Positions 29,935 through 64,000 of a stretch of DNA of 64,000 bases are shown here, piece by piece (position 1 is the first letter of the stretch; every line of letters begins with the position of its first letter). The notes under the pieces were generated by a model that worked only from the letters and a program-made list of their open reading frames with translations, was not told the DNA's origin and did not search any database. A program made the position numbers and the translations under genes. Source of the DNA: Gammaproteobacteria bacterium (GTDB taxonomy: Bacteria > Pseudomonadota > Gammaproteobacteria > UBA6429 > Thiohalophilaceae); NCBI GenBank assembly GCA_024275915.1, contig JAJRYG010000010.1:62001-126000 (forward strand), given 5' to 3'.

Positions 29935-29979
29935 GCCCCCTAAACAGGATATTGAAGCCCCGCAAGGCTTTGAGGGGGC
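29935..29979. repeat. Nested hairpin upstream of galT
   Basis: Outer GCCCCC (29935-29940) pairs with GGGGGC (29974-29979), and inner AAGCC pairs with GGCTT around CCGCAA. The left part (TAAACAGGATATTGAAGCCC) weakly resembles the terminus of repeat family C at 62964. No T-run follows. Confidence 0.35.
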
Positions 29980-60559: not shown

Positions 60560-62470
60560 TCAGATTTTGAACTGGGAGACCAGTTTCTGCAGCTCGGCCG
60601 AGAGTTCGGCCAGTTCGTCACTGGCCAGGGAGATCTGCTGGGCACCTTCGGCGGTCTGGTGAACCACGTCATTGATATTGGTGATATTGCGATTGATTTC
60701 TTCGGCCACGGCGCCCTGTTCCTCGGCGGCACTGGCGATCTGGATATTCATGTCGGTAATGCTGTTGACCGCCTGGCTGATCGATTGCAGTGACTTGCCG
60801 GCTTCATCGGCATGACTGACACTTTGCTGGGCTTTTTCGGTGCTGCTGTGCATGGCCGAGACCGCATCCCGCGAACCGGCCTGCAGGCGTTCAATCATCT
60901 GCTGGATTTCTTCGGTTGACTTCTGGGTACGACTGGCCAGGGTGCGAACCTCGTCGGCGACTACCGCAAAGCCACGGCCCTGTTCACCGGCACGGGCCGC
61001 TTCAATGGCCGCATTCAGTGCCAGCAGGTTGGTCTGCTCGGCAATCCCGCGGATCACGTCGAGCACCGAGCCGATGTTTTCCGATTCATCTTCCAGTTGC
61101 TTGATGACATTCGAGGCGCTGTCGATTTCACTGGCCAGGGTATTGATGGAGCTCACCACCCGGTTGACGACTTCCTGGCCATTGGCTGTTTCGTCATTGG
61201 CGCTTCTGGCCGAGTGAGCGGCATCGGCAGCATGACGAGCCACTTCCTGAACCGTTGCCGTCATTTCATTCATGGCGGTGGCCACCTGCTCGGTTTCACT
61301 TTGCTGCTGGCGAACACCCTCGGTGGTGATGCGGGTAATGTTGGTCATTCTTTCTGCCGAGGAGGCCAATTGGGTGGTGGAGCCGGCCACGCGGCTGACC
61401 ATATCATGCACTTTTTTGGCAAAACGGTTGAAGGCCGCGGAGAGATGGGAGATCTCATCCTTGCCTTCCTCGCTCAGACGCCGGGTCAGATCACCTTCAC
61501 CTTCGGCAATGTCATCCATGGCGTCGGCAGTGGAGCGAATGGGCTGGCTGATGCTGCGACCAATCAATCCGGCAATGACCAGCCCCACCAGCAATGCAAC
61601 GATGCCGATGAGCAGAATGGAATACTGGATCTGGTTGAGGGAGGCCACGTAGTGACTGCGATCCATGGCGATTTCCAGGACGCCGATGGGTTTGCCGGAA
61701 AAGTCATTCACGGCACGAAGATAAACCGAGACCGGAGTCCCATTGACTTCATCCTGAAAACTGACGGCATTACCATTGATGGCGCGCGACATTTCTTCAT
61801 CACTGCTGAGGCGGGTTTCTCCCAGGGTGCTGGCAAACAGCTGGTATGCGCCGTCACGGGCCACGTACAGGGCGATGTCGACATTGAATTTTTTCTTGAA
61901 GGCATCGAAGAAGGGTTGGCCGAACGACATGCCCATTTCCAGCGAACCGATGTGTTTGCCCTGGTATTCGACAGGCACCAGACCGCGGATGCCAAGACCG
62001 GCAACACCCTTTTCAAGTCCCTTTACCGGGGATTTGTTCCTGTTGACCTGTAAAACGGTTTTCCTGAAACCGGACAGATCATCCCCGAACTTGGCCGGTT
62101 TATGCACGCGCAAAAACGAAGTGGCCGGTGGCGTATGGAACTGGAACTGCCGGACTGCGTATTTTTCTTTCAAGGTCTTGAATCCGGGCACCAGTCGGTC
62201 GGCAAGGGCCTGCCGGTCTTTTTCGGCAAAGGCCTTCTGTATTTCTGGCATGGTGGCGAGCATGTAGCTCATGGCTTGGGCGAGCTGGCCCTTGGAGTCG
62301 ATTTCGGCCATGGCGCTTTCATACAGGCCCTGTAATTCCCGCAGCTCCGCCTCGCGGACGACACCGGCGACCTGTTTGAGAACCAGTGGAATTACGATGA
62401 CCAGGACCAGGACCAGGACCAGGGCGAAGCCTGCGGAGATACGGGTACCAATTTTGAAATTGCGAAACAT
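60560..62470 (-). CDS. Methyl-accepting chemotaxis protein with a Cache-type sensor
   Basis: A 636-residue chemoreceptor. TM1 lies near 12-33 and a periplasmic sensor near 34-280. The sensor has the pattern [22 protein letters not shown] and [19 protein letters not shown], which fits a dCache_3-like domain. TM2 is near 284-306. HAMP and the signalling hairpin follow, with the tip [20 protein letters not shown] near 478-497. The ligand is unknown. It is monocistronic behind an excellent sigma-28-type promoter on the minus strand. Confidence 0.93.
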
Positions 62471-62569: not shown

Positions 62570-62669
62570 GTAGATGCGAGGAGATGGCATTGTTCGGCTA
62601 TCAGTACGCCAGGCGGGCAGGCATCACCATGCGGTGGCCGGCAAGTCATTGAAAACCAAAGGGCCAGCG

Positions 62670-62790
62670 GGCTGTTGGAAAAGGCCTCACTGACCCTTTT
62701 CAACCCCGGGACGCCGAAAATGGCACAGCATCCCACCGCCGCACACAGGCTGCCAGACCTCCGGTGTGTTCCTTTCCGGTTGCGCAGCCG
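62670..62790. repeat. Repeat family C, degenerate copy
   Basis: CTGTTGGAAAAGG and CCCTTTTCAAC form a hairpin, followed by GAAAATGGC, a CCGCACACAGGCTG block and CGGTG. The same blocks appear in the same order in the fuller copy at 62964-63130. Confidence 0.6.
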
Positions 62791-62963
62791 AGAAGGGGTT
62801 TTTCGATGGCCGGGCAAAAGAAAAGGCTGGGGACGATGCATTTTCAGCCCTGAAACCGTCGGCAATACCGGTTGAAGGCGTTCAAATAAAAGGCATATAG
62901 TTGGTGAGCAGCAGGCAAGGCCGGCGCGTCCTGGCTTCGGGGATCATTGGCGCGTTGATGGCC

Positions 62964-63130
62964 TAACAGGATGTTGAAAAAGCCCTTCCCTGGCCTTTTT
63001 CAACTCGGGAACGGCAAACGCGGTTTGCCGTTCCCTCACATTTTCAATGACTTGTGGTCATTGAAAATGGCGGTGCGTCCCTGCACCGCACACAGGCTGT
63101 CGAATAACGGTGTTTTTCAACAGCCTGTTA
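62964..63130. repeat. Repeat family C, complete element with nested palindromes
   Basis: A 167-base element. Its ends, TAACAGGATGTTGAAAAA and the complement of TTTTTCAACAGCCTGTTA, pair over 18 bases with one mismatch. Inside are three further hairpins: GTTGAAAAAG/CTTTTTCAAC-type near 62972-63004, GGAACGGCAAAC/GTTTGCCGTTCC, and ATTTTCAATGAC/GTCATTGAAAAT. It ends 27 bases before the Na/Pi gene, so it may affect its transcription. It has no frame coding for a transposase. The remaining gap 62791-62963 holds nothing I can name. Confidence 0.8.
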
Positions 63131-63157
63131 ACCACAAACCACAGCAGGAAAAAAACA

Positions 63158-64000
63158 ATGAAACACAAGGCCACCCCGTTGGTTCCGGGCTCTGAAGCAG
63201 AACAGGCCGGTTCGTGGCGCTGGCTGGGACTTCTGGCCCTGTTCGGTCTATTGATTTTTCTGCCGGTCATCCTGCCTGTCTCGGCGCAGGAGGTGGAGCC
63301 GCCGGTGGATGTGGACTGGTTCATGGTTGGCATGGGGCTGTTTGGTGGTCTGGCTCTGTTCCTTTACGGTATGGAGGAAATGTCCAACGGCCTCAAGGCC
63401 GCATCCGGTGACAGTCTGAAAAACCTGCTGGGCAAGCTGACCACCAACCGGTTCAGTGGTGCCCTGACCGGTGCCTTTGTTACCGCCATCCTCAACTCTT
63501 CCTCGGTTACCACCGTGCTGGTGGTTGGCTTTATCACGGCCGGAGTGATGACCCTGTCCCAGTCCATCGGGGTCATCATGGGTGCCAATGTGGGCAGCAC
63601 CTTTACCGCCCAGATCGTGGCCTTCAATGTCACCCAGTATGCCCTGTTGCCGGTGGCCATCGGTTTTGCCATGAGCTTCACGGCGAAGAATGATCGCATT
63701 CGCTACTACGGCATGATGATCATGGGGCTGGGGCTGGTATTTTTCGGCATGGGGATCATGAGTGATGCCATGGCCCCCTTGCGCAGTTACCAGCCTTTCC
63801 TTGCACTCATGCAACGCATGGAAAATCCCTTGCTGGGGATTCTTGCCGGTGCGGTATTTACCGGTCTGGTGCAGTCCTCGGCAGCCACCACCGGTATTGC
63901 CATCGTTATGGCCAGTGAGGGCCTGATGAGTCTGCCGGCTGGGATTGCCCTGGCGCTGGGTGCCAATATCGGCACCTGCGTGACCGCCCTGCTGGCCTCC
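63158..64000 (+). CDS. Na/Pi symporter family protein, N-terminal part (3' end outside window)
   Basis: An open frame runs from ATG 63158 (GCAGGAA upstream) to the window end without a stop, 281 residues. It is a sodium-phosphate symporter of the NptA/PNaS type. Residues 1-50 hold a leader-like hydrophobic segment (WLGLLALFGLLIFLPVILPVSA). The conserved paired motifs then follow: LFLYGMEEMSNGLK, AILNSSSVTTVLVVGF and GLVQSSAATTGIAIV, plus two GANVG/GANIG sites. Most of the C-terminus is missing, so any PhoU-like tail cannot be seen. Confidence 0.9.
   Translation, partial: MKHKATPLVPGSEAEQAGSWRWLGLLALFGLLIFLPVILPVSAQEVEPPVDVDWFMVGMGLFGGLALFLYGMEEMSNGLKAASGDSLKNLLGKLTTNRFSGALTGAFVTAILNSSSVTTVLVVGFITAGVMTLSQSIGVIMGANVGSTFTAQIVAFNVTQYALLPVAIGFAMSFTAKNDRIRYYGMMIMGLGLVFFGMGIMSDAMAPLRSYQPFLALMQRMENPLLGILAGAVFTGLVQSSAATTGIAIVMASEGLMSLPAGIALALGANIGTCVTALLAS

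Follow-up and report, generated by a model that had tools for sequence, protein, structure and literature searches.

An IS5-type MITE with a covarying five-hairpin core beside a phosphate-transporter gene

What is a palindrome-rich element doing immediately upstream of a phosphate-transporter gene? In the window, by which we mean the whole 64,000-nucleotide stretch of DNA analysed here, the element lies in the divergent intergenic region between a chemotaxis-receptor gene on the minus strand and a Na+/Pi-cotransporter gene on the plus strand (Table 1). Its end (63130) is 27 bases upstream of the ATG at 63158 of the Na_Pi_cotrans protein, as a sequence-only reading of the locus had stated. That reading suspected a mobile element and also proposed an effect on expression of the transporter gene. 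Our own reading, to which we give a probability of about 0.82, is that the element is a mobile IS5-type MITE with a structured five-hairpin core, and that the copy on the Na/Pi side is most likely an incidental insertion.

Table 1. Coordinates of the element, its parts and its neighbours in the window
Feature	Position	Strand	Evidence or remark
Intact MITE copy, CAGG...CCTG (type A ends)	62967..63127	+	161 bp; R2 175.8 bits, E 1.5e-48
Left target-site 4-mer CTAA (YTAR)	62963..62966	+	flanking-4-mer read-out, YTAR statistics
Right target-site 4-mer TTAA (YTAR; one base off left)	63128..63131	+	flanking-4-mer read-out, YTAR statistics
Left terminal inverted repeat CAGGATGTTGAAAAA	62967..62981	+	repeat comparison, 15 bases
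Right terminal inverted repeat TTTTTCAACAGCCTG	63113..63127	+	repeat comparison, 15 bases
Hairpin H1; 5' arm = inner part of left terminal repeat	62973..63004	+	fold, covariation, R2
H1 loop TTCCCT (minus strand AGGGAA)	62986-62991	+	
Hairpin H2, 13 pairs	63007..63035	+	palindrome, fold, covariation
Hairpin H3, 13 pairs	63039..63069	+	palindrome, fold, covariation
Hairpin H4	63070..63089	+	fold, covariation, R2, loop pattern
H4 loop GTCCCT	63077-63082		minus strand C[AGGGAC]G, ANGGAX hexaloop on C-G pair
Hairpin H5; 3' arm = right terminal repeat	63093..63127	+	palindrome, fold, covariation
Degraded second copy	62668..62752	+	37-base repeat 81% identical; score 39, shuffles <=27
Na+/Pi-cotransporter gene, continues past window end	63158..64000	+	PF02690 E 3.4e-63
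Divergent methyl-accepting chemotaxis protein gene	60560..62470	-	PF00015 E 1.2e-47

The near-perfect 18-base ends and the three internal palindromes that had been described at this locus are borne out: positions 62964-62981 and 63113-63130 are 94% complementary over 18 bases, and of the three 13-base palindromes two are perfect and one pairs at 12 of 13 positions. Hairpins had also been recognised, as a nested set of four; the hairpins are there, but they are better described as a row of five, of which the first contains one terminal repeat and the last the other. On the plus strand the five-hairpin fold has an energy of -87.5 kcal/mol, while shuffled sequences average -44.1 (z -12.2), and the minus strand, likewise forming five hairpins in a row, reaches -91.1 (z -10.4); none of 200 shuffles equalled either fold. 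The degraded copy reported upstream is real but badly decayed. Its best stretch (62716-62752) has a score of 39, where the highest of 500 shuffles reaches 27, and an end with two mismatches lies at 62668-62682; the covariance model R2, described below, misses it. An end-like fragment claimed near 29940 fared less well. The match spans 14 bases, was equalled or beaten by five of 500 shuffles of only 221 bases and has no R2 match; the claim is not supported, and the fragment appears indistinguishable from chance.

Other copies are found in the same genome and in several of its relatives. The genome-wide count that the sequence-only reading had proposed gave, for the own genome (G000; 2.34 Mb, 77% complete, 112 contigs), 36 near-complete matches over at least 131 of the 167 positions at 84-100% identity and four partial ones, among the 40 scored of 176 candidates. 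The end motif CAGGCTGTTGAAAAA, with at most one mismatch, occurs 200 times in this genome (105+95) as against 0 for its reversed control. In a search of relatives, five of 40 genomes matched, namely the own genome, G008 of the same family (21 places with copies or fragments at up to 91% identity, plus four antisense self-matches), G039 (21 matches), and G032 and G035 with one each, while the same-genus genome G001 gave no match. A DNA search with the whole element added G040 and G042, so that many dispersed copies are seen in G000, G008, G039, G040 and G042. This patchy presence among relatives fits a mobile repeat.

In G040 (the JACORW assembly) copies lie less than 100 bases from contig ends, for example L126, L127, L137 and L142, so the repeat probably breaks assemblies and the copy counts are probably too low. 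G042 (3.1 Mb, the genome of L130) gave 431 first-look candidates, 40 of them scored, the highest candidate number of all genomes in the whole-element DNA searches. The own genome also holds 44-bp solo units (L100:95-138, L101:82-125 and L103:114-157), which consist of H1 alone between two full terminal repeats, in the case of L101 with CTAA on both sides; a deletion from the H1 3' arm to the right repeat is their probable origin.

The flanks of the copies carry a target duplication. Between its flanking 4-mers the window copy measures 161 bp, which leaves no space for a transposase gene, and its own flanks, CTAA and TTAA, differ from each other by one base. Of 197 nhmmer matches, 62 were kept as near-full copies, which come from four genomes; the others are partial or antisense self-matches. 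The two 4-mers are identical in 26 of the 62, where permutation gives a mean of 10.4 (p<1e-4). By genome the identical pairs number 16 of 34 in G000 (p 0.0015), 5 of 16 in G008 (p 0.0003) and 5 of 11 in G039 (p 0.052). A YTAR flank stands on the left of 41 and on the right of 43 of the 62 copies, and passages of PMC10359306 give YTAR as the conserved target duplication of IS5. A palindromic target site was also considered and is not supported (p 0.16 over the 62 copies). No relative in a 24-genome search aligned at the DNA level across the intergenic region to offer an empty site, and a plasmid DNA search returned no whole-element match for the window copy or for the L183 copy.

A partner transposase with matching ends, which the sequence-only reading had proposed to look for, is found in the relative G008, where it is frame-broken. 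It is an IS5-family transposase related to that of a rhizobial IS, split over three frames with identities of 57, 52 and 54%. The 1,304-bp unit around it has perfect 15-base ends the same as those of the MITE and is flanked by CTAA/CTAT. A search with the element end also identified ISs on two rhizobial plasmids that start with CAGGCTGTTGAAAAA, are annotated as members of the IS5 family and have an open transposase gene; the encoded proteins pass the cut-off of NCBIfam NF033581 (transpos_IS5_4). These two are among five plasmid places with the end sequence that were examined. One of the others lies before a gene annotated as ISL3 family, where a second end was not found, and two are without annotation, in Halioglobus with both ends and in Paraburkholderia with a single end. 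No such transposase was found in the own genome (77% complete) or in G040-G042 (in a search without a positive control); the own assembly is incomplete, and assemblies are broken by repeats.

Two of the plasmid units have further features. In the Rhizobium plasmid NZ_CP018236.1 (L053:3492-5018) the IS sits exactly between two 12-base palindrome arms, cagtaagactaa and ttagtcttactg, and its flanks are these arms, not identical YTAR copies. The IS-like unit in the Halioglobus plasmid CP019045.1 (L055:3504-5352) has the ends CAGCCTGTTGAAAAA with CTAG on both sides, and its inner reading frames look by eye like a different transposase inserted in a remnant.

Because the copies are flanked by duplicated YTAR and an IS5-family IS with the same ends occurs in a relative, the element by the phosphate-transporter gene is a MITE with IS5-type ends and target. 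This supports the original suspicion of a mobile element that has conserved ends, a conserved fold, copies elsewhere and a partner transposase; the mobilisation of the element in trans, and the act of movement itself, we infer. A palindromic repeat of the REP/BIME type, mobilised by a REP-associated tyrosine (Y1) transposase, would share the dispersed palindromes and the short solo units (35-44 bp), but the YTAR target duplications point to a DDE enzyme, and we regard this origin as extremely improbable. The Y1 transposase PF01797 had no match in G000 (77% complete) and had matches in four of the seven genomes searched.

If instead the element were kept because a folded leader or terminator controls the Na/Pi gene, two observations would be in its favour, the short distance to the ATG and a promoter-like site at 62872-62901 that would transcribe through the element (chance mean 0.4). 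Against this, copies occur in all four gene arrangements (at the loosest setting, with crude ORF calls, 22 divergent, 16 convergent and 41 tandem of 79 loci), no promoter-like site lies inside the element, and only one terminator-like site, H4 on the minus strand, falls within it; by chance the 751-base region would hold 1.6 on average. The GGA strand, which is the minus strand and is discussed below, is also directed away from the Na/Pi gene at the window copy. The proposed action on phosphate-transporter expression finds no support of its own, and we consider local control very improbable. Most likely the copy on the Na/Pi side was inserted there incidentally, in an intergenic region between divergent genes.

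The hairpin core extends well beyond copies with these ends. Covariance model R1, built from 17 copies and run on 89 loci from eight genomes, showed that elements with other ends share the five-hairpin fold. Ends of type A read CAGG.TGTTGAAAAA, those of type B GGAA.CTCTGA and those of type C CAGGTTGATGCAAAA, and in all three types the first and last hairpins are, by eye, rebuilt around the respective terminal repeat. Among 26 type B (GGAA..TTCC-ended) copies with ends recognised by regular expression, a few of them visibly one base off, the flanking 4-mers are identical in 14 (permutation mean 5.6, p<1e-4), so that YTAR target duplication is seen for type B elements, too. The core itself had no match in 12 IS- or transposase-bearing loci, and its presence inside ISs was rejected on this result.

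Several single loci show how the ends can be arranged. A chimera at L169:1260-1424 combines a left end of type B with a type A end on the right, which indicates that ends can recombine between families. At L165:1631-1765 the third hairpin of a type B element contains a type A end, which looks like a nested insertion. L203 and L205 have a further end type, GTGTCGCAAAA...TTTTGCGACA, around the same core, and there are thus more than three end sets.

A second covariance model, R2, was built from 25 copies and matches 79 of 369 genomes of the class, taken to be Gammaproteobacteria, the own genome included, in 61 of 272 genera. It also matches 47 of 398 genomes drawn from the phylum, taken to be Pseudomonadota; 44 of these carriers are outside the class, 35 of them belonging to a single family and the remainder to six further families. 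Seven to eight candidates were scored per genome, which makes the copy numbers of this survey lower bounds. An exact-pattern scan found four carrier assemblies, three labelled Gammaproteobacteria (one of them as from groundwater) and one labelled Chromatiales. A known RNA family was rejected in the window, since no Rfam family reaches its gathering score within the 64 kb. Laxer scans of the window copy and eight loci gave no element hit reaching a gathering score, the hits being far below it except for a tRNA in locus L179. A literature search, with most subscription journals outside its reach, returned no report of this repeat or of CsrA-binding MITEs, and this structured MITE superfamily is apparently previously undescribed.

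Compensating changes, a further check proposed in the sequence-only reading, are abundant in the core. In 25 diverse copies (alignment A4), 95.4% of cells are paired and 51 of 56 pairs have double changes, with 287 double-change cells; shuffling gives 68.7 and sliding the partners 30-49. In 47 copies (alignment A5) the figures are 95.5% standard pairs, 55 of 56 pairs with compensatory changes, and 659 double-change cells as against 192.7 and 55-107. Both alignments were fitted by models of the same structure, which favours that structure, but despite this the slid controls stay far below the observed double changes. A structure-blind MAFFT alignment of 62 copies gave a first RNAalifold consensus of only 22 pairs, because the hairpins of distant families were out of register; 11 of the 22 predicted pairs had double changes, and this consensus was replaced by the structure-aware alignments. 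Among copies within a genome, the H2-H4 stems have a mean minor-letter frequency of 0.034 compared with 0.151 at unpaired positions (p 8e-14). The core is therefore widely distributed, covarying and independent of end type. Its base pairing is preserved by compensatory changes across many bacterial families and through terminal-repeat exchange, so that the core most likely works as a folded single strand, on which selection would act.

Some loop bases, unlike the stems, hardly change. The most invariant unpaired positions include TCC.T in the H1 loop (2.0, 1.85, 2.0, 0.3 at the N, and 1.73 bits) and TCC.T in the H4 loop (1.85 bits each, 0.69 at the N), followed by two G in the H2 loop (1.70 and 1.74 bits). 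TCC.T is present in H1 of 40, in H4 of 43 and in both hairpins of 37 of the 47 copies.

These loops bear on two other explanations of the hairpins. The standard pairs are nearly all Watson-Crick (in A5, 2,435 Watson-Crick, 32 G.T, 60 A.C and 55 other cells), which also fits DNA hairpins or palindrome correction, and G.T and A.C changes within genomes are symmetric, as from a DNA process. The element could be an ordinary MITE with hairpins of no selected function, its palindromes kept by templated quasi-palindrome correction in replication; such correction copies one arm onto the other and would imitate covariation. It leaves unexplained, however, why loop bases stay fixed at 1.7-2.0 bits amid changing stems, with 0.3-0.7 for the intervening N, and why hairpin number, order and size are constant through end-repeat replacement, and we judge it unlikely. 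Slightly less unlikely is a role of DNA-level hairpins in transposition, where each terminal repeat has a hairpin of its own and a folded single strand or cruciform would offer the transposase a double-stranded end or stop internal cuts. The re-forming of the first and last hairpins of types A, B and C around each new terminal repeat (by eye) agrees with this role, as does the G.T/A.C symmetry, but the three internal hairpins and the conserved ANGGA loops find no place in it, the 12 transposase-bearing sources lack the core, and IS5-type DDE enzymes are not known to require hairpin ends.

We prefer selection on a folded single strand, and the loops suggest what may recognise it. On the minus strand, opposite to the strand of the sequence-only reading, TCC.T reads A-N-G-G-A. 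The H4 loop there has the form C[ANGGAX]G, with the C-G closing pair in 43 of 47 copies, and the H1 loop comes with either six or five bases; one strand thus holds several hairpin loops with A(N)GGA. Passages of PMC4005645 describe CsrA/RsmE sites as A(N)GGAX loops on a C-G closing pair, the hexaloop ANGGAX being the high-affinity form, along with five-base loops without the N, and those of PMC6692469 give the CsrA consensus as RUACARGGAUGU or (A/U)CANGGANG(U/A). CANGGANG occurs 67 times on the GGA strand of the 47 copies and twice on the other strand (at least once in 44 copies and at least twice in 22), whereas 200 Markov controls have a mean of 2.1 and a maximum of 6. Exact ACARGGAUGU, part of the SELEX consensus, is present in eight of the 47, and the looser CAGGAHG, which is less strand-specific, is present in 19 on the GGA strand with 10 occurrences on the other. 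Nine copies from outside the class give CANGGANG counts of 15 and 3 and no exact ACARGGAUGU.

Other observations are mixed. Within genomes the ANGGA positions have a minor-letter frequency of 0.038, below that of unpaired positions (p 3e-4), but they are no better conserved than positions drawn at random from the element, most of which are stem (0.29, 0.47 and 0.24 of the random sets are as low). Across the 47 copies plus-strand A.C cells, which are G.U on the GGA strand, outnumber G.T cells by 60 to 32 (p 0.005), in favour of the GGA strand; by pair columns the excess is slight, 31 to 26, and two columns give 19 of the 60 A.C cells. G.T changes are not fewer than A.C changes within lineages (47 vs 35 events, p 0.22, in the first 91 of 150 A3 rows and only lineages with at least eight rows), and within genomes there are 65 G.T and 64 A.C cells, neither count giving a GGA-strand wobble signal. 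The csrA gene is present in the own genome. Compared by eye, csrA matches occur in 71 of 79 carriers and 242 of 290 non-carriers and are absent from 8 of 79 and 48 of 290, respectively. The carriers without a match (G032, G120, G150, G190, G209, G222, G264 and G367) include G150 at 95% and G222 at 98% completeness, which argues mildly against a strict need for CsrA.

The orientation of the GGA strand relative to neighbouring genes was also considered. Tandem gene pairs with loose gene calls have 13 sense and 28 antisense copies (p 0.03), and other settings give 12 vs 21 (p 0.16), 8 vs 14 (p 0.29) and 14 vs 24 (p 0.14). The test covers 47-79 loci with crude longest-ORF gene calls and one copy per locus, with three duplicate loci, short-flank loci and loci without flanking ORFs left out. 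An orientation effect is not accepted, since p 0.03 is reached only with loose gene calls and no robust rule emerges.

With ANGGA in two apical loops, the folded strand may be an RNA read by CsrA/RsmA-type proteins. Because the motif was noticed after the fact, and in view of the orientation, csrA and wobble results and the lack of an internal promoter, we give this prediction somewhat below even odds, although putative CsrA/RsmA binding is the best functional lead. The wider proposal is a shade more tentative still: a superfamily in at least two classes of one phylum whose selected, covarying RNA module would carry two CsrA/RsmA-binding hairpins per copy, kept through end swaps.

ERIC, BOX, RUP and Correia elements are, like this MITE, intergenic, structured, mobile and present in many copies, and their ends and target differ from those seen here; unlike them, the window has no Rfam match at the gathering threshold. 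MITEs are usually seen as degenerate IS leftovers with arbitrary insides. In this MITE it is the ends that can be exchanged and the inside that is conserved, a reversed pattern that is found in about a fifth of the class genomes searched and beyond the class. The element resembles the IS-derived bacterial MITEs treated in passages of a review (PMC10969869), the Coxiella QMITEs (PMC5896051) included: it is short, leaves no space for a transposase gene, and has terminal inverted repeats, target duplications, many copies and a stable fold. Unlike them, it has a conserved loop motif and a single covarying five-hairpin core that extends beyond one class and across differing terminal repeats. With the IS5 family (NF033581) it has in common the terminal repeat CAGGCTGTTGAAAAA and the 4-base YTAR duplication, but only about 15-18 terminal bases are shared with the ISs seen, and the five-hairpin core is absent from the 12 transposase-bearing loci examined. 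A(N)GGAX apical loops on C-G-closed stems, and the ANGGAX hexaloop, recall RsmZ and CsrB as described in parts of PMC4005645 and PMC6692469; unlike these, the present element is a mobile repeat, not one chromosomal sRNA gene, with two candidate sites per copy. Two CsrA-related sRNAs of Alcanivorax are described in passages of PMC9788540, where they are not called mobile repeats.

For a repeat that has no gathering-level Rfam hit in the window, the covariance model can serve directly in annotation, and what selection acts on in non-autonomous elements becomes a directly testable question here. If the GGA loops do bind CsrA/RsmA, they would connect a mobile repeat with a global regulator. The copies, with tens and perhaps hundreds of them per genome, could then serve as a mobile sponge, or as portable landing sites, for this global regulator of translation, and the element could itself be protected or timed by CsrA binding.
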